64,000 nucleotides of DNA from Methanoculleus oceani. GTDB lineage: Archaea > Halobacteriota > Methanomicrobia > Methanomicrobiales > Methanoculleaceae. The stretch covers positions 1-64,000 of the forward strand of contig NZ_QFDM01000001.1 of NCBI RefSeq assembly GCF_023702065.1, written 5' to 3'. The notes under the pieces are model-generated. The model made no database searches. It was not told the origin of the DNA and was given only the letters and a program-made list of their open reading frames with translations. This document shows, one piece after another, positions 29,885 to 38,012 of this stretch; within the stretch, counting starts at the first letter, position 1, and every line of letters starts with the position of its first letter. Made by a program: the position numbers and the translations under genes.

Positions 29885-29978
29885 GATGGCGCTGGATCCG
29901 GTGCAACCGGGAGTGTGCCGTCGACGCATCACGGTACCCGGATTCGCACGCGCGCCCCGCAACGGAAGGTGGAGAGAA

Positions 29979-30221
29979 GTGGAACCTGAGAAGAAACCCG
30001 CGGCGGTCGTGGACTGTATCGGGCTCTACTGCCCCATGCCGATCGCGATGACAAAAGAGGCGATCGAGAGACTCGACGTCGGAGAGGTGCTCCTGATCGA
30101 GGCGGACGACCCCGCCGCGGAGGAGGATATCCGGCGCTGGGCGAACCGGGTGGGGCACGAGATCGTGAAGTTCGAGAAGGATGACGGCGTCATGAGGTTC
30201 TCCATCCGGAAGATGAAATGA
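29979..30221 (+). CDS. TusA-family sulfur carrier protein 1
   Basis: An 80-residue TusA/SirA-like protein starting at GTG 29979, after a purine-rich GGTGGAGAGAA site. The sulfur-binding motif is canonical: CIGLYCPMPIAM, that is CPxP, with a further Cys six residues earlier. TusA proteins pass persulfide sulfur from a desulfurase to acceptors. It opens a six-gene operon with two diverged TusA copies, a DsrE-like protein, IscS and IscU, which together describe a sulfur relay. Confidence 0.85.
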   Translation: MEPEKKPAAVVDCIGLYCPMPIAMTKEAIERLDVGEVLLIEADDPAAEEDIRRWANRVGHEIVKFEKDDGVMRFSIRKMK

Positions 30222-30231
30222 GGTGAGATGA

Positions 30232-30480
30232 ATGTACGCGGATAAAACGGTGAGTTGTGTCGGGATCTGCCAGTCGCCGATGCTCTCGATCGAGGAGGAG
30301 ATGGAAACGCTCAACATGGGACAGGTCCTGCAGGTGACGACCGATAAACCGGACCTCGTCGGAACGGTCAGGTCCTGGGCCGGTGAGAACGGGCATACGA
30401 TCGAGGAAGAGCACGTCGCGAGCGGCGTAACGACCCTCATCGTGCGCAAGGGAGCGGCGGCAACGGCAGAGACGAAGTGA
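30232..30480 (+). CDS. TusA-like protein 2 with CQSP motif
   Basis: An 82-residue TusA-fold protein. The catalytic segment reads CVGICQSPMLSIEEEM, so the first Pro of CPxP is replaced by Gln, while both cysteines are kept. Downstream strands (VLQVTTDKPDLVGTVRSW) match the family. It lies 10 bases after copy 1. The variant motif suggests a different sulfur acceptor or donor, or a role in oligomer formation with the other copies. Confidence 0.75.
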   Translation: MYADKTVSCVGICQSPMLSIEEEMETLNMGQVLQVTTDKPDLVGTVRSWAGENGHTIEEEHVASGVTTLIVRKGAAATAETK

Positions 30481-30484
30481 TCGC

Positions 30485-30715
30485 ATGGCTGCCGGAGGCT
30501 ACGTGGATGCAAAGGGAGCCTACTGCCAGGCGCCGGTCATCCTGCTCAAAGAGGGGATGGACAGGCTCGCGAGCGGCGAGATCCTGAAGGTCGAGGTGGA
30601 CAATGCCCCCACGGAGGAGGACGTCCGGGTCTGGGCAAGGCGGATGGGCCACGAGATCGTGAGCGAAGAGAAGGATGGAGAGAAGATCACCTTCTCCATC
30701 CGGAAAGGAGCGTGA
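30485..30715 (+). CDS. TusA-like protein 3 with CQAP motif
   Basis: A 76-residue protein, start ATG 30485, five bases after copy 2. It reads DAKGAYCQAPVILLKEGMD, so the single active cysteine is in a CQxP setting and the upstream cysteine of copies 1 and 2 is lost. The C-terminal half (GHEIVSEEKDGEKITFSIRK) closely resembles copy 1, pointing to local duplication. It overlaps the start region of the DsrE-like gene. Confidence 0.75.
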   Translation: MAAGGYVDAKGAYCQAPVILLKEGMDRLASGEILKVEVDNAPTEEDVRVWARRMGHEIVSEEKDGEKITFSIRKGA

Positions 30716-30720
30716 AAGGT

Positions 30721-31080
30721 ATGGCACGGATACTTTACATCCAGACCAGCGGCACCGATACCCCCGAGCGGCTGTACGCACCGTTCGTTCTCGCGATGAC
30801 GGCGCGCAGCATGGACATGGACGCCGACATCTACTTCATGATCAAGGGGGTGACGGTCGTCAAGAAGGGCGCCGCAGAGGAGATCCAGGTCGGGAACTTC
30901 CCGAAACTCTCCGAGATCATGCACCAGGCAATCGCTTCCGGGGCAAAGATCTACATCTGCGAGCAGAGCACCCAGCTCCTCGGCATGGCACGGGGCGACT
31001 TCATCGCGGAGGGGCAGGTCGTGGGCGCGCTCACCTTAAACGATCTCGCCGTCGACGCCGACGCGGTCATCACGTTTTAG
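30721..31080 (+). CDS. DsrE-family protein
   Basis: A 119-residue protein with the DsrE/DsrF fold: MARILYIQTSGTDTPERLYAPF, then MDADIYFMIKGVTVVKKG, and one cysteine in AKIYICEQSTQLL. The position of that cysteine fits the DsrE/TusD sulfur-accepting site. The ATG at 30721 is preferred to GTG 30712. Proteins of this type accept sulfur from TusA. Stop to the iscS ATG is 12 bases. Confidence 0.8.
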   Translation: MARILYIQTSGTDTPERLYAPFVLAMTARSMDMDADIYFMIKGVTVVKKGAAEEIQVGNFPKLSEIMHQAIASGAKIYICEQSTQLLGMARGDFIAEGQVVGALTLNDLAVDADAVITF

Positions 31081-31092
31081 GGACGGCCGGAT

Positions 31093-32247
31093 ATGGAGGA
31101 GCGAATCTATCTCGACCACGCGGCGGCGATGCCGGTCCACCCGGGGGTTCTCCGGTTCGGGAGGCAGTTCCCGGGCGAATTCGCCGGCAACCCCTCCACG
31201 CTCTACCAGGAGGGGCTCGCGGCGCAGGAAGCCGTTTCCCGGGCGCGGGAGCAGGTAGCGTCGCTCGTCGGCGCGAGCGACACGGCCTCGATCGTCTTTT
31301 GCAGCGGGGCGACCGAAGCGAACAACATCGCCGTCCGGGGCACCGCACTCCGGAATGCGAAACGGGGGAAAAACGTCGTCGCGAGCGCCATCGAGCACAT
31401 ATCCGTGCTGAACCCGGCAAAAGACCTGCAGAAGAGCGGGTTCTCTCTTACACTCGCTCCGGTCGACCATTACGGCACGATCGACCTCGACGCTCTCAGG
31501 AAGGCGGTCACGCCGGAGACCGTTGTTGCGTCGGTCCACTACGCGAACAACGAGATCGGGACGGTCGAGCCGGTCCGGGAGGTGGCGGAGATCGTCCACG
31601 ACCGGGGCGGGATCCTCCATGTGGACGCCACCGATGCCGCGGGAAGGATACCGATCGACGTGGAGCGTGACGGCATCGACCTTCTCACCCTCTCGGGAAA
31701 CCAGCTCGGGGGGCCGCAGGGGGTCGGGGCGCTCTACATCCGCCCGGGGGTCCGGGTCCAGCCGGTCCTCGTCGGGGGCGGGCAGGAGCGCGGTCTCCGG
31801 CCGGGGACCGAGAACGTCTTCTCGATCGCCTGCATGGGCGAGGCGGCCCGGCTTGCAGGGGAGGAGATGCCGGGGGAGAGCAGACGGCTCCGGGCGATCC
31901 GGGACCGGCTTATCTCCGGCATCACGGAGATGGAGGAGGCCTACCTGACCGGCCACCCGACTGAGCGCCTCCCGCACCACGCGAGTTTCCGCTTCTCCCG
32001 GATCGAGGGCGAGAGCATACAGCTCGCCATGGACATGCTCGGGATCGCGGTCGCCACCGGGTCGGCGTGCACCTCAAGGACGCTCGAGGCCTCCCACGTC
32101 CTCCTCGCCATCGGGCTCGCCCACGACGAGGCGCACGGGTCGATGGTCGCGACGCTCGGGCGCACGAACAGCCCGGACGAGGTGCCCCGGATCGTCAGGG
32201 CCGTCGAAGAAACAGTTAAACGCCTGCGGGCCATTACACCGCTGTAG
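31093..32247 (+). CDS. iscS: IscS/NifS-like cysteine desulfurase lacking the PLP lysine
   Basis: A 384-residue fold-type I aminotransferase-like protein of the IscS family. The persulfide Cys326 lies in ATGSACTS and the cofactor-contact Asp is in HVDATDAAG. At the site where PLP-binding Lys is expected (SxHKxxGPKG), the sequence reads SGNQLGGPQG, so residue 204 is Gln (codon CAG 31702-31704), equivalent to Lys206 of E. coli IscS. Archaeoglobus fulgidus IscS is a known precedent for loss of this Lys. It directly precedes iscU, so a sulfur or cluster-assembly role remains likely, perhaps with altered chemistry. Confidence 0.85.
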   Translation: MEERIYLDHAAAMPVHPGVLRFGRQFPGEFAGNPSTLYQEGLAAQEAVSRAREQVASLVGASDTASIVFCSGATEANNIAVRGTALRNAKRGKNVVASAIEHISVLNPAKDLQKSGFSLTLAPVDHYGTIDLDALRKAVTPETVVASVHYANNEIGTVEPVREVAEIVHDRGGILHVDATDAAGRIPIDVERDGIDLLTLSGNQLGGPQGVGALYIRPGVRVQPVLVGGGQERGLRPGTENVFSIACMGEAARLAGEEMPGESRRLRAIRDRLISGITEMEEAYLTGHPTERLPHHASFRFSRIEGESIQLAMDMLGIAVATGSACTSRTLEASHVLLAIGLAHDEAHGSMVATLGRTNSPDEVPRIVRAVEETVKRLRAITPL

Positions 32248-32256
32248 GTAGAAAGA

Positions 32257-32646
32257 ATGGCAGACCAGATCGGATACAGCCAGAAGGTGATGGAGCACTT
32301 CATGAACCCGCACAACGTCGGGGTGATCGAGAACCCGGACGGCTACGGCAAGGTCGGCAACCCCGTCTGCGGGGATCTCATGGAGATCTTCATCAGGGTC
32401 AAAGACGACGTCATCGAGGATATCAGGTTCCGGACGTTCGGGTGCGGATCGGCGATCGCCACGAGCAGCATGGTGACCGATCTCGCCAAAGGAAAGACGC
32501 TCGACGAGGCGATGAAGATCACCCGCGACGACGTGGCGACCGAACTCGAGGGGCTGCCGCCCCGGAAGATGCACTGCTCGAACCTCGCGGCGGACGCGCT
32601 CCACGCGGCGATCCAGGACTACCGGGAGAAACAGAAGAAAGAGTGA
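32257..32646 (+). CDS. iscU: IscU/NifU-like Fe-S scaffold
   Basis: A 129-residue scaffold for Fe-S cluster assembly. The three ligand cysteines are all present: Cys38 in GNPVCGD, Cys63 in FGCGSAIATSS and Cys107 in MHCSNLA, with the conserved Asp40. Start ATG 32257 follows iscS by nine bases. It is the last gene of the sulfur operon and converges on cofD. Confidence 0.93.
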   Translation: MADQIGYSQKVMEHFMNPHNVGVIENPDGYGKVGNPVCGDLMEIFIRVKDDVIEDIRFRTFGCGSAIATSSMVTDLAKGKTLDEAMKITRDDVATELEGLPPRKMHCSNLAADALHAAIQDYREKQKKE

Positions 32647-32657
32647 AAGAGGTGCTT

Positions 32658-33560
32658 TCAGCACCCGTAGATCAGCGTCAGGATGCTCTTCGCGAGGTCG
32701 AGGCTCTTGCCCCGGTTGACCATGAGGGTGTCCAGGCGCAACGCGCCTTCAAGCCCGACCGGGTCCCGGGTATCCTGGATGAAGAGATCCACGAAATCCT
32801 CGTAAAGACCGTAGGTCCCGGCCGATGAAGCCTCTTTTCCGAAGGCCTGCATCAGGGCCGCCGCCGGGCCGCTGACCGGCGTATCGCCGATGAACGGGCT
32901 GACCGCGATGACGCACTGCCGGCGGAGCGCCTCCCTCACCCCGGCGCACTCCAGGATCGGCGATATGCTCGTGACCGGGTTGCTCGGGCCGATCACCACG
33001 GCGTCGCTCGCCTCGATCGCCCCGATGACCTCGTCGGTCGCGACCGGAGGCTCCCCGAACCGCCGGCTCACGCCGTCGATCGCCATTTCACCCCGGTGCT
33101 TCACCCAGTACTCCTGGAAGTGCATCTCGCCCTGACCGGTGCGGACGTAGGTCGTCACGACGGAGTCGGTCATCGGGAGAACGGTCGCCCGGACGCCCAG
33201 GTTCCGGCAGAGCGCCGCGGTTGCCCCGGTGAGCCTTATCCCGCTCCTGAGCATCTCCCCTCGCGCAACGTGCACCGCCCGGTCCTGGTCCCCGACGGCG
33301 ATGTACTCGTCGATGCCGAGCCTCGCGAGGAGGTCGTGGGTGATGTAAGAGTCATTGCGGATCCCCCACCACCGGTTGGTGTCGAGGATGCCCGCAAAGA
33401 GGTACATGACCGTATCGATGTCGGGCGAGAGGTGGTTGCCGGAGAGCCACGTGTCCTCGGCCGTATTGACGATGACCGCGATATCCCGGTCGTCCAGCAG
33501 CTCCCGCATCCCGCGGAGGAGCTTCGGGGTCCCGGTCCCGCCCGAGAGGAAGGTTATCAT
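32658..33560 (-). CDS. cofD: 2-phospho-L-lactate transferase (F420 synthesis)
   Basis: A 300-residue CofD that joins the lactyl-2-diphospho-5'-guanosine (or phosphoenolpyruvyl) moiety to the deazaflavin FO, giving F420-0. It opens [17 protein letters not shown], with the conserved Lys of the GGTGTPKL loop, and has NTAEDTW, PDIDT and [11 protein letters not shown] motifs. ACATATACAG about 30 bases upstream is a likely TATA, predicting a short leader. A diverged tandem copy lies immediately upstream. Confidence 0.92.
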
Positions 33561-33633: not shown

Positions 33634-34536
33634 TCACGAAATTGCGTGGCGTATGACCGCCATGATGTCCCAGGCGAGCGATTCGGCCTGCCGCTCGTGC
33701 ATCAGGCGTGTCTCGAGACGGAGCGACCCGGGGACGTCGTCGGGGTCGTGGATGTCCTGGACGAAGACGTCGACGATATCCCCATACAGCCGGGAGACCG
33801 CCGGAGCGTTCGGTGGTTCCCCGACGGCGTACATGAGGGCGGCGTCCTTTGGGTCCGGCGCGACGCCGCCCGAAAACGGCGAGACCGCGACCACGAACTT
33901 CTCAAGGAGGAGATCCCGCATGCCGGCGCAGTCGAGGATGGGGAGGATGCTCGCCGCCGGGTTCGCGGGGCCGATCACCACGGCGTCGCTCGCCTCGATC
34001 GCCGCCCGCACCTCTTCCGTGACCGCCGGGGGTTTTGGCCCGACGAGTTCCCGGACCTCCGTCTCCATCCCGGCGGCCGTCCGGTACTCGAGGAGCGGGA
34101 GGCGTTCGGTGCCGGTATCGACGAAGAGGGCGGCCTCTCCATCCGTCATCGGGAGGACGGTCGCCCCGATGTTGAGCGAGCGGCACTGCGCCCGCACCGC
34201 CTCCGTCAGGGTCCAGCCCCTGCGGAGGAGACCCGCCCGGGCGATCTGGACGGCCCGGGCACGGTCGCCGACCGGGAAGGGTTCGCCGCCCGCCACCTTC
34301 GGAAGGTAGTTGTGGGTGGCGTAGGTATCGCCCTTGATCCCCCACCACCGGCCGGTATCGAGGATGCCCGCGAAGAGGAAGACGGCGGTGTCGATGTCGG
34401 GCGCACAGTGGCTCCCCGAGACCCAGAGATCCTCGGCGGTGTTCGCGACCACGGCGATCTCGCTGTCGTAGAGGATCTGCCGGGCGCCCCGGATGAGCGC
34501 AGGTACTCCGGTTCCGCCGGAGAGGAAGGTGATCAT
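33634..34536 (-). CDS. CofD paralogue
   Basis: A 300-residue second CofD-fold protein, same length and orientation as cofD 73 bases away, yet clearly diverged across its length. It keeps NTAEDLW, PDIDT and VIGPANPAASI, but its opening loop reads GGTGVPALIRG, without the Lys of the first copy. It may use a different phospho-donor or acceptor, or serve a second F420 variant. The cofD label is withheld because the loop differs. Confidence 0.8.
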   Translation of the reverse strand: MITFLSGGTGVPALIRGARQILYDSEIAVVANTAEDLWVSGSHCAPDIDTAVFLFAGILDTGRWWGIKGDTYATHNYLPKVAGGEPFPVGDRARAVQIARAGLLRRGWTLTEAVRAQCRSLNIGATVLPMTDGEAALFVDTGTERLPLLEYRTAAGMETEVRELVGPKPPAVTEEVRAAIEASDAVVIGPANPAASILPILDCAGMRDLLLEKFVVAVSPFSGGVAPDPKDAALMYAVGEPPNAPAVSRLYGDIVDVFVQDIHDPDDVPGSLRLETRLMHERQAESLAWDIMAVIRHAIS

Positions 34537-34805: not shown

Positions 34806-37800
34806 ATGGGTTGGTGTCAGATAATTACCGAAACTTTTTCCCTGGTACCATTATGCTCCGTCTCTGGGTCATTGCTAACGGAGGTTGCAAATACAGCAGG
34901 ATATGGCACTACCCGATTTGCAACTAATATTATCTCTCTTTCTGTCAGTGAGGTAGTAATCCCCATTATCATAGCAGTAATTGCAGCTGTTATTGGAGGG
35001 GGAATATATGCTGCGATACGCACCGTTGCAACACGAAACAAGGACTTTGAACAGCAATTCTTGCGGGTAAAATTTACATCGAAAATTTCTCCTGATGACT
35101 TCGGCTTTGGCAAGGACACCTTTAGCTTTGACAAGGACAAGAAATCCTTCTATCTGGAGAGGAAATATCAAAACAGTGACGAAACCCTAGAAGATCGCAT
35201 CTCTAAAAGAGTTACTGGTGTCCACTTACGGGGAAATGACGTCCTAATTATGGGAAAACCGGATTCCGGCAAAACTAGGATGGCATATGAAGTCATCAAG
35301 AATTTAAATGGTCATTATATTCTGTTGATTCCAAAAACTGGCATTTACGATACTTCAAATCTGAAACTCCCGTTCTACCCACGATCCTATTTGTCACCCA
35401 GCCGAAAGCCAAAATTCATCCTCTTTCTTGATGATCTGCAAAAATATTGCACATCAACGAGTCTCGATGACCTAATCTCGAAACTTCAAAGTCGTTTCCC
35501 GGTAACTATCATTGCAACTGTCAGGGAGGGAGACGAGTACATAAAGGCCGTTGGGAATGAATTGTTTTGTAATTCTAATAGGTTTTCAGCCCTCTTGGAC
35601 AGCGACGCCTGTTTCCATATCCCGGACGTTTCAGATGAAGAAGCCAATACAATCGCTTGTGAAACCGGGAAGCCCATCCCGGAGGGATTTGAGGCTATTC
35701 GAACCGTAGGGGCAATACTTTCAGGGTGGGATAAGTTAAAAGAGAGTTATACGAAAAAGGTCATGTCTTCGGCAGATATTACTGCTCAGAATGCTCATAA
35801 AATTATGATTTCCAATAGGGCTCTCTATGACCTTGGTTTATCTACAACAGACTTCGAAAGGGTCAATATAATCCTAAGCGAGATTTACGGCATTCAATTA
35901 AATAAGTCTCAAATTACTGCAGCTGAGAATCACCTGCAGTCTAATCATGTCATTGCATGGGATACTACAACAGGAGAGTGGCTTGCAGGAGGAAAAATCT
36001 TAGAGTTTTTGGTGTTGGATGCGTTGAAAGAAACCAAGTTATTAAATCACATCGATTCTGTTTTCAAGCAGTTCCAGGGGAACCACGATTTTCTTGCACT
36101 ATTTGAATGCGGGATGAGACTTTACGATAGAGATCTGCTGGAGGTTTCCTATCAGGCATTCTCCTACGCAATCCAGATTCCAAACTTGCCAACTTCATTC
36201 CAGGGTATCCTGTATTCTTTATTAGGAACTACTCAGGGAGACCTCGCTAAATACTGGTATCCAGTGGACGCTGAAGAAGGGATCAAACTCTTCAACCAAG
36301 CCTTTGCGAAGTACGAGAAAGCGGTGCAGATTGAGCCAGATTATCATGAAGCCTGGAATGACTGGGGAAGTAATCTGGCGAACCTTGCCAAATACCGGTA
36401 TCCGGTGGACGCTGAAGAAGGTATCGAACTCTTCAACCAGGCCTTTGCGAAGTACGAGAAAGCACTGAAGATCAAGCCGGATGACCCTCAAACTTGGCAT
36501 AGCTGGGGAACAGATTTGGGAGACTTTGCCAAATACCGGTATCCAGTGGACGCTGAAGAAGGTATCGAACTCTTTAACCAGGCCTTTGTGAAGTACGAGA
36601 GAGCGCTGAAGATCAAGCCAGATGCCTATCAAATTTGGTATAATTGGGGAATAGATCTAGGGTATCTCGCCGAATATCGATATCCGGTGGACGCTGAAGA
36701 TGCGTCAGATCTCTTCAATCAAGCCTCTGCGAAGTGCGAGGAAGCATTGAAGATCAAGCCGGATATGCATGGTGCCTGGGTCAACTGGGGAACCACTCTG
36801 GGAAAACTCGCCGAATATCGATATCCGGCGGACGCTGAAGAAGGTATCGAACTCTTCAACCAAGCCTCTGCAAAGTATGAGAAAGCGGTGAAGATCAAGC
36901 CGGATGACCATGAAGCTTGGTACAACTGGGGAACTGTCTTGGGGTACCTCGCCGAATACCAGTACCAGACGGACGCTGAAGAAGGTATCAAACTCTTCAA
37001 CCAAGCCTTTGCGAAGTACGAGGAAGCGGTGAAGATCAAGCCGGATAAGTATGATGCCTGGTGTAACTGGGGAAATGTTCTGGGGAGTCTCGCCGAATAT
37101 CGGTATCTGGTGGACGCTAGAGAAGGTATCGAACTCTTCAACCAGGCCTTTGCGAAGTACGAAGAAGCGGTGAAGATCAAGTCAGATGGCCATCAAGCTT
37201 GGTGTAACTGGGGAAATGTTCTGGGGAGTCTCGCAAAATACAGGTATTTGGTGGACGCTGGAGAAGGCATCAAACTCTTCAGCCAGGCCTTTGCGAAGTA
37301 CGAAGAAGCGGTGAAGATCGAGCCCGATTTCCATGACGCTTGGAATAGCTGGGGAGTTACTCTAGGGAATTTCGCCGAATACCGGTATCCGGTGGATGCT
37401 AGAGAAGGTATCGAACTCTTCAATCAAGCTTTTGCAAAGTACGAGGAAGCGGTGAAGATCAAGCCAGATATGTATGAGGCCTGGTGTAACTGGGGAACTA
37501 ATCTGGGGAGTCTCGCCAAATATCGGTATTTGGTGGACGCTGAAGAGGGTATCAAACTCTTCGATCAAGCCATTGCGAAGTACGAGGAAGCGGTGAAGAT
37601 CAAGCCAGATTATCATCAAGCTTGGGAGAACTGGAGAAATGTTTTGATTGGTATTGCAGAAGTTTTGCTGAACCATTTCACATATCAGAATCCAGTGGAC
37701 CTTGAAAAAGTGTCCGAGTATGCCATCCAAGCCGCTAAGAAATACATGGAAGCGATAGAGGACAAGCCGTCACAACCCTCCGTTACGACAGACCGCCAAG

Positions 37801-38012
37801 TAACCATCACCTGGAACCTCTGGCTATCCGTCCTCGTCCCCGGACTCAGCCTCCCGGTGATTGCAATAGCCATCAGGGAGTACTGTCTCCCCGACCCGAC
37901 ATGGTTCCCGGCCATCTGCGTTGCAGTGCTGGTTGGGGGGGCGTCTATCTATGGGGTCTGGGTAAATAGGGAGTTTAATAAGCAGTATCAAACAGTGACG
38001 AATCCAAATTAG
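34806..38012 (+). CDS. Membrane STAND-like NTPase with TPR/SLR-type repeats
   Basis: A 1068-residue protein of unrecognised specific family. A membrane helix (about 48-72) is followed by a P-loop domain with Walker A GKPDSGKTR (150-158) and Walker B FILFLDDLQ (204-212), then a helical region to about 479. Ten 47-residue repeats follow (480-949, pattern LAKYRYPVDAEEGIELFNQA...KIKPD..AWxxWG), a degenerate eleventh, and two C-terminal helices near 1003-1050. The architecture (NTPase switch, repeat sensor, membrane parts) resembles STAND signalling or defence proteins. The gene is visibly AT-richer than its neighbours, suggesting transfer. No strong ribosome-binding site precedes the ATG. Confidence 0.75.
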   Translation: MGWCQIITETFSLVPLCSVSGSLLTEVANTAGYGTTRFATNIISLSVSEVVIPIIIAVIAAVIGGGIYAAIRTVATRNKDFEQQFLRVKFTSKISPDDFGFGKDTFSFDKDKKSFYLERKYQNSDETLEDRISKRVTGVHLRGNDVLIMGKPDSGKTRMAYEVIKNLNGHYILLIPKTGIYDTSNLKLPFYPRSYLSPSRKPKFILFLDDLQKYCTSTSLDDLISKLQSRFPVTIIATVREGDEYIKAVGNELFCNSNRFSALLDSDACFHIPDVSDEEANTIACETGKPIPEGFEAIRTVGAILSGWDKLKESYTKKVMSSADITAQNAHKIMISNRALYDLGLSTTDFERVNIILSEIYGIQLNKSQITAAENHLQSNHVIAWDTTTGEWLAGGKILEFLVLDALKETKLLNHIDSVFKQFQGNHDFLALFECGMRLYDRDLLEVSYQAFSYAIQIPNLPTSFQGILYSLLGTTQGDLAKYWYPVDAEEGIKLFNQAFAKYEKAVQIEPDYHEAWNDWGSNLANLAKYRYPVDAEEGIELFNQAFAKYEKALKIKPDDPQTWHSWGTDLGDFAKYRYPVDAEEGIELFNQAFVKYERALKIKPDAYQIWYNWGIDLGYLAEYRYPVDAEDASDLFNQASAKCEEALKIKPDMHGAWVNWGTTLGKLAEYRYPADAEEGIELFNQASAKYEKAVKIKPDDHEAWYNWGTVLGYLAEYQYQTDAEEGIKLFNQAFAKYEEAVKIKPDKYDAWCNWGNVLGSLAEYRYLVDAREGIELFNQAFAKYEEAVKIKSDGHQAWCNWGNVLGSLAKYRYLVDAGEGIKLFSQAFAKYEEAVKIEPDFHDAWNSWGVTLGNFAEYRYPVDAREGIELFNQAFAKYEEAVKIKPDMYEAWCNWGTNLGSLAKYRYLVDAEEGIKLFDQAIAKYEEAVKIKPDYHQAWENWRNVLIGIAEVLLNHFTYQNPVDLEKVSEYAIQAAKKYMEAIEDKPSQPSVTTDRQVTITWNLWLSVLVPGLSLPVIAIAIREYCLPDPTWFPAICVAVLVGGASIYGVWVNREFNKQYQTVTNPN
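36243..37652 (+). repeat. Ten tandem 141-bp coding repeats
   Basis: Ten units of exactly 141 bases (47 codons) encode the TPR-like array of the STAND-like protein. Strings such as GCGAAGTACGAGGAAGCGGT recur almost unchanged, so the copies are homogenised at the DNA level, while codons around the WxxWG segment vary. An eleventh, degenerate unit continues to about 37790. Confidence 0.9.

Follow-up and report, generated by a model that had tools for sequence, protein, structure and literature searches.

A lysine-less IscS homologue encoded with TusA, DsrE and IscU: a candidate desulfurase-free partner for iron–sulfur cluster assembly in archaea

In a 64,000-nucleotide stretch of the Methanoculleus oceani genome (positions 1 to 64,000 of contig NZ_QFDM01000001.1, hereafter the window), we characterized an IscS homologue that lacks the PLP-binding lysine and belongs to a mainly archaeal clade in which this Lys, the adjacent His, a pocket Gln and the substrate Arg, judged from aligned sequences, are lost together as a coordinated loss. 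The persulfide/cluster-ligand Cys is retained and genes for TusA and/or DsrE nearly always accompany the clade. We hold with moderate confidence that the protein is no cysteine desulfurase and acts as a PLP-independent partner of IscU, its Cys326 taking persulfide from TusA/DsrE and/or co-ligating the nascent cluster.

The lysine-less protein and its operon

The gene (31093–32247, forward strand) was examined by ORF reading, orthologue alignment, a phylogenetic tree and an AF2 model, and encodes a 384-aa protein of the IscS/NifS type that reads TLSGNQLGGPQGVG around the lysine site. Residue 204 is Gln, encoded by CAG at 31702–31704 within SGNQLGGPQG, at the HK site of IscS. That this Gln replaces the PLP-binding Lys had been predicted from the window alone, and both the ORF reading and the family orthologues agree with it. 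Alignment at column 204, the check proposed with the original prediction, covered 17 family orthologues from separate genomes, 15 from the genus (window genome included) and 2 from the sister genus: none has Lys, 16 having Gln and 1 Pro. Of the 16 Gln codons, 13 are CAG and 3 CAA, and the use of both indicates that the residue, more than the codon, is held. Comparisons of the family orthologues with the window copy gave dN/dS of 0.18–0.36, which indicates purifying selection on the protein.

By its Pfam match (Aminotran_5, 1.1e-67) the protein is a fold-type I, class V aminotransferase homologue, and it scores below the NCBIfam equivalog cut-offs for both IscS (343.2 vs 643.2 bits) and NifS (413.7 vs 530.75 bits). 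The AF2 model, built with a 35-sequence alignment as input, reached a pLDDT of 91.6, the least confident part being the Cys loop at residues 325–329; single-sequence prediction gave 35.9, and the alignment-based model is the one used. Fold comparison with IscS structures yielded TM scores of 0.93–0.96, and the closest PDB entries by sequence and fold were those of Archaeoglobus fulgidus IscS (AfIscS), 4r5f/4eb5.

The operon runs head to tail on the forward strand in the order TusA1, TusA2, TusA3, DsrE, Lys-less IscS, IscU, with gaps of 10, 4, -4, 12 and 9 nt. TusA1 (29979–30221; Pfam TusA 2.9e-24), of the persulfide-carrier family, has the canonical CPMP and is conserved in the cassette; its probable start is the GTG at 29979, with GGTGGAG read from the sequence upstream, the longest ORF beginning at 29886. 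TusA2 (30232–30480; Pfam TusA 4.5e-10) and TusA3 (30485–30715; Pfam TusA 4e-18) are divergent and retain the Cys in CQSP and CQAP, respectively. The DsrE/DsrF-like sulfurtransferase gene (30712–31080; Pfam DsrE 6.3e-19) overlaps TusA3 by 4 nt and encodes a conserved Cys83 in YICEQS. IscU (32257–32646; Pfam NifU_N 8.8e-50) is a scaffold protein in which the three cluster Cys and the Asp are all present. Pfam matches and the motif tally thus bear out an intact IscU and three TusA-like proteins beside the enzyme, as originally listed; the list had overlooked the DsrE-family gene in the TusA–iscS interval. Two adjoining CofD paralogues (2-phospho-L-lactate transferase family; 32658–33560 and 33634–34536, both on the reverse strand) stay beside the cassette throughout the genus. 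The window also encodes, at 34806–38012 on the forward strand, a 1068-aa protein with the P-loop-like motif GKPDSGKT and many TPR repeats.

Residues lost and kept around the cofactor site

To the family orthologues we added a wider set drawn from an order search (199 genomes), a phylum search (393 genomes) and one named species-genome scan. The IscS sequences were collected with a Lys-less query, and the motif tally compared 101 Lys-less with 86 Lys-bearing sequences (187 in total). Position 204 is Lys in none of the 101. In the window protein, sequence, codon and motif tallies place Asn203–Gln204 (31699–31704, forward strand) where the canonical His–Lys forms the PLP Schiff-base site; position 203 is Asn in 95 and His in 5 of the Lys-less sequences, as against His in 85 of the 86 others. 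Asp181 (31633–31635, forward strand) replaces the canonical PLP-pocket Gln, turning DAxQ into DATD (alignment and motif tally). Ala or Asp occupies this position in 94/101 and Gln in 1/101 Lys-less sequences, with Ala in most of the clade, compared with Gln in 84/86 Lys-bearing ones. Val352 (32146–32148, forward strand) replaces an Arg that, from general knowledge of SufS/IscS, we take to bind the substrate carboxylate, the motif S[LI]R becoming SMV (alignment, codon and motif tallies); Arg is present in 4/101 Lys-less sequences, Val, Ile and Leu being the substitutes, vs 86/86 Lys-bearing ones.

Cys326, the persulfide/cluster-ligand Cys in GSACTSR (32068–32070, forward strand), is retained as predicted. 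It is encoded by TGC across the family orthologues and is invariant in both sets (101/101 and 86/86). The window protein has the mobile Cys loop (GSAC) of cysteine desulfurases. The accompanying claim that other cofactor contacts remain held for His102, Asp178 and Asn153 and failed for three others, His203, Gln181 and Arg352 having become Asn, Asp and Val. A screen of all columns located 9 of the 13 most clade-discriminating positions (73, 77, 104, 177, 181, 199, 203, 204 and 352) in motif stretches that, by homology, lie round the cofactor site.

The window protein has neither the Schiff-base Lys (SxHK) nor the substrate Arg (SxR) of a cysteine desulfurase, and these residues strongly support a loss of desulfurase chemistry. 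The expectation that it does not perform ordinary desulfuration is likewise strongly supported by the joint Lys/His/Gln/Arg loss together with the inactivity reported for AfIscS, which PMC7585200 summarizes with reference to Pagnier 2014 and Marinoni 2012. AfIscS, named as a precedent from the start, proved to be of the same Lys-less clade.

The Lys-less clade and its gene neighbours

A tree computed without the trait columns placed 90 Lys-less rows in one clade (SH-aLRT 95), in which position 204 is mostly Asp. The window protein groups there with AfIscS (locus L213, 99.7% identical to the PDB 4EB5 sequence) and apart from Lys-bearing IscS. The Gln/Pro group is a single branch inside the clade (SH-aLRT 99) with Asp or Glu neighbours, and this nesting makes it probable that Gln204 arose late, from an older state in which Lys had already become Asp. 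The clade further includes sequences from MAGs carrying the labels Bathyarchaeota, Thorarchaeota, Thermoplasmatota and Thaumarchaeota, and from a small number of bacterial ones, where binning errors are possible. The tree is compatible with one to three Lys losses. Methanosarcina IscS1 may represent a separate loss; it stood apart from the main clade in one tree and joined it with a support of 18 in another, and because its placement differs between trees we do not claim convergence. Two bacterial MAGs hold further sequences of this kind: one from Saganbacteria (L136:2496-4866), possibly a separate bacterial case, has Leu at the Lys site and Val at the Arg site, with DsrE downstream and TusA farther on, and one from Omnitrophota (L165:4739-6155), which departs from the carrier linkage, has Gln at the Lys site and Leu at the Arg site, with an Nfu-like neighbour and no TusA or DsrE nearby.

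Loss of Lys coincides with the presence of sulfur-carrier genes. TusA and/or DsrE lie within 1.5 kb of IscS on the same strand in 98/101 Lys-less but only 1/86 Lys-bearing loci, a strong pattern, although the 187 IscS sequences are related and were gathered from a Lys-less query, and the 98 are not independent events; these sequences offered too few independent pairs for a paired test of Lys loss versus linkage to be informative. L107 (Nitrososphaerota MAG) and L206 are exceptions, Lys-less without a close TusA or DsrE. The sole Lys-bearing IscS adjoining TusA is in a Hydrothermarchaeota MAG (L112:3583-6606), where TusA, the Lys-bearing IscS and IscU follow an IscS-like gene whose Lys site codes for Arg. 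IscU is adjacent in 94/101 Lys-less loci, as it is in the window. The order TusA–DsrE–IscS–IscU is kept clade-wide, mostly with a single TusA outside the window family, and part of the Archaeoglobaceae have one TusA alone, without DsrE, adjoining the Lys-less gene. Within the cassettes the Cys is kept in 115/119 TusA (the other 4 being gapped) and 79/81 DsrE, and all three Cys and the Asp of IscU are retained wherever the alignment covers them.

AfIscS is the best match to the window protein (47–48% identity, TM 0.93–0.94) and has known structures (PDB 4EB5, 4EB7 and 4HVK, and the D199K mutant 4R5F). In both proteins Lys and the substrate Arg are replaced, the Cys loop is kept and IscU adjoins, and in A. 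fulgidus, too, DsrE adjoins IscS, with TusA adjoining a second copy. AfIscS differs in having Asp at the Lys position and Ala at 181, where the window protein has Gln and Asp. The genomes also differ, two Lys-bearing IscS being present in the window genome and none found in that of A. fulgidus. M. acetivorans IscS1 (MA0808), which according to PMC7585200 lacks the Lys and has four neighbouring genes without a known function, was matched by the IscS1 cluster of Methanosarcina-type genomes. It resembles the window protein as a Lys-less IscS with IscU, here in a TusA–DsrE–IscS1–IscU cluster of its own, and differs in that Lys is changed to Thr, the substrate Arg is kept and His102 is Asp; its IscU is longer, with an extra C-terminal domain. 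The window gene order also contains the IscS–IscU homologue pair without carriers that characterizes MIS (MisS/MisU; Garcia et al. 2022), a two-gene iscS–iscU pair in an archaeon. That system is said, in the passages of PMC12192291 and PMC12442378 that mention it, to include a cysteine desulfurase, whereas the window protein, although of MisS type, appears from its sequence to lack the needed residues and travels with TusA/DsrE genes.

Genome inventories placed the single IscU match of the window genome, and all three of its TusA, in this operon; the genome also has one SufB and, elsewhere, the two Lys-bearing IscS, with no IscU beside either. Only Lys-less IscS turned up (E 1e-15) in eight Archaeoglobaceae-type genomes, all near-complete and one of them the A. 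fulgidus match; Lys-bearing IscS or SufS was absent from these eight, their other class-V proteins being of other kinds by their motifs. Several relatives within the genus have lost the gene from the locus between aspS and cofD and retain IscU and TusA. L268 and L272 have clean gaps of ~150 nt in its place and keep an intact DsrE alongside TusA and IscU. In L261–L267, L269 and L271, also without the gene at the syntenic locus, DsrE seems degraded or is missing, as do some of the TusA copies. These relatives mostly possess a Lys-bearing IscS–IscU pair too. In another member of the genus (L037, G009) a Lys-bearing IscS paralogue is broken by an in-frame TGA.

Sulfur supply and the role of the protein

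In the role that we propose, TusA and DsrE would be loaded from the anaerobe's pool of sulfide or polysulfide, and Cys326 would serve as a way-station that accepts persulfide sulfur from these co-encoded proteins and then gives it to IscU and/or acts as the fourth ligand of the nascent cluster. Alternatively, TusA/DsrE may pass sulfur to IscU on the platform of the Lys-less protein. The 98/101 vs 1/86 linkage lends support to the earlier suggestion that sulfur comes from another donor, putatively by way of the TusA-like proteins. Gene linkage is not the same as sulfur flow, however, and from it we infer the relay, including the direction of flow, the identity of the donor and the contact of TusA/DsrE with the Lys-less protein. 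Deletion of the gene in genus relatives that keep IscU and TusA counts against the relay and indicates that the protein is dispensable there.

Known systems offer partial parallels. In E. coli, sulfur passes from IscS to TusA and on to the DsrE-like TusBCD, IscS being the active source. IscS, TusA and DsrE-family proteins thus share one sulfur-trafficking route there, and if the window protein is catalytically disarmed, sulfur would have to flow inwards, opposite to the E. coli relay. Complexes of E. coli IscS with TusA and with IscU have been solved, according to the titles of the PDB entries. Archaeal DsrE and TusA are also co-encoded in Metallosphaera cuprina (dsrE3A-dsrE2B-tusA), where they pass thiosulfate between Cys residues (PMC4175335); that system differs in serving dissimilatory sulfur oxidation with Hdr-like proteins and has no IscS or IscU.

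The relay competes with a purely structural role, which we regard as rather unlikely, though the strongest of the alternatives: Cys326 would be a temporary fourth cluster ligand, sulfur would come as free sulfide, and TusA/DsrE would merely be co-transcribed and serve another pathway, for example tRNA or cofactor thiolation. Such a role has been proposed for AfIscS, going by the title of Pagnier 2014 and the summary in PMC7585200, and its Cys321 ligates the IscU cluster (PMC9769115). In anaerobic E. coli, sulfide alone feeds IscU when IscS is absent (PMC13015791), and the Archaeoglobaceae with a single adjacent TusA and no DsrE fit the same reading. It leaves unexplained why TusA/DsrE genes accompany Lys-less and not Lys-bearing IscS, and why the divergent Methanosarcina IscS1 has the same companion genes.

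We consider it improbable that PLP chemistry persists, with PLP held non-covalently or through another Lys and slow desulfuration perhaps aided by TusA/DsrE. The window protein keeps His102 (PLP stacking) and Asp178 (ring nitrogen), and the A. fulgidus IscS–IscU structure is described with PLP (PMC9769115). A screen for substitute Lys found one enriched residue, Lys110, present in 99% of the Lys-less clade vs 27% of Lys-bearing IscS, whose location in the pocket would be hypothetical. Against persisting chemistry are the loss of the substrate Arg in 97/101 Lys-less sequences, the change of the PLP-ring Asp178 to Asn in 20 of the 101 and the inactivity of AfIscS as summarized in PMC7585200.

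Simple degeneration of a duplicate is very improbable. Deletion of the gene from its locus in several other members of the genus and the two Lys-bearing copies in the window genome would suit it, but it is contradicted by purifying selection (dN/dS 0.18–0.36), the lack of frameshifts, the invariant Cys loop and wide retention after the loss, and by the Lys-less protein being the sole IscS-type protein in the eight Archaeoglobaceae-type genomes. A sequencing or assembly artefact at codon 204, for which we found no support, has negligible probability: sequencing error is excluded by the absence of Lys from all 17 family orthologues, 16 of them from further genomes, and by the use of both Gln codons, and linked changes occur at other pocket sites.

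A Lys-less, inactive IscS is already known in A. fulgidus and is suspected for M. acetivorans IscS1. The literature covered, which did not extend to the primary AfIscS and MIS papers, yielded no earlier description of the Lys-less clade, the coordinated pocket loss or the Archaeoglobaceae without a Lys-bearing homologue; nor did it yield one of the near-exclusive TusA/DsrE linkage, which those primary papers may mention.

Extending the relay to the whole clade, we tentatively suggest, with less confidence than for the window protein, that a widespread, mainly archaeal form of ISC builds clusters without a desulfurase, TusA/DsrE collecting sulfur from sulfide or polysulfide and loading a catalytically dead IscS and then IscU. 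This concerns the source of sulfur for iron–sulfur clusters in sulfide-rich anaerobes, where SMS (SufBC) uses sulfide and cysteine is still given as the sulfur source of the IscS/IscU pair (PMC12192291). The Lys-less clade provides a concrete alternative, with all the genes, the residues given up and the Cys kept being named, and in the Archaeoglobaceae there is no ordinary desulfurase to confuse tests. Many archaeal annotations of "cysteine desulfurase" are probably wrong in this respect. If the desulfurase-free form is indeed the only IscS-type route in Archaeoglobaceae, IscS would have a cysteine-independent mode.
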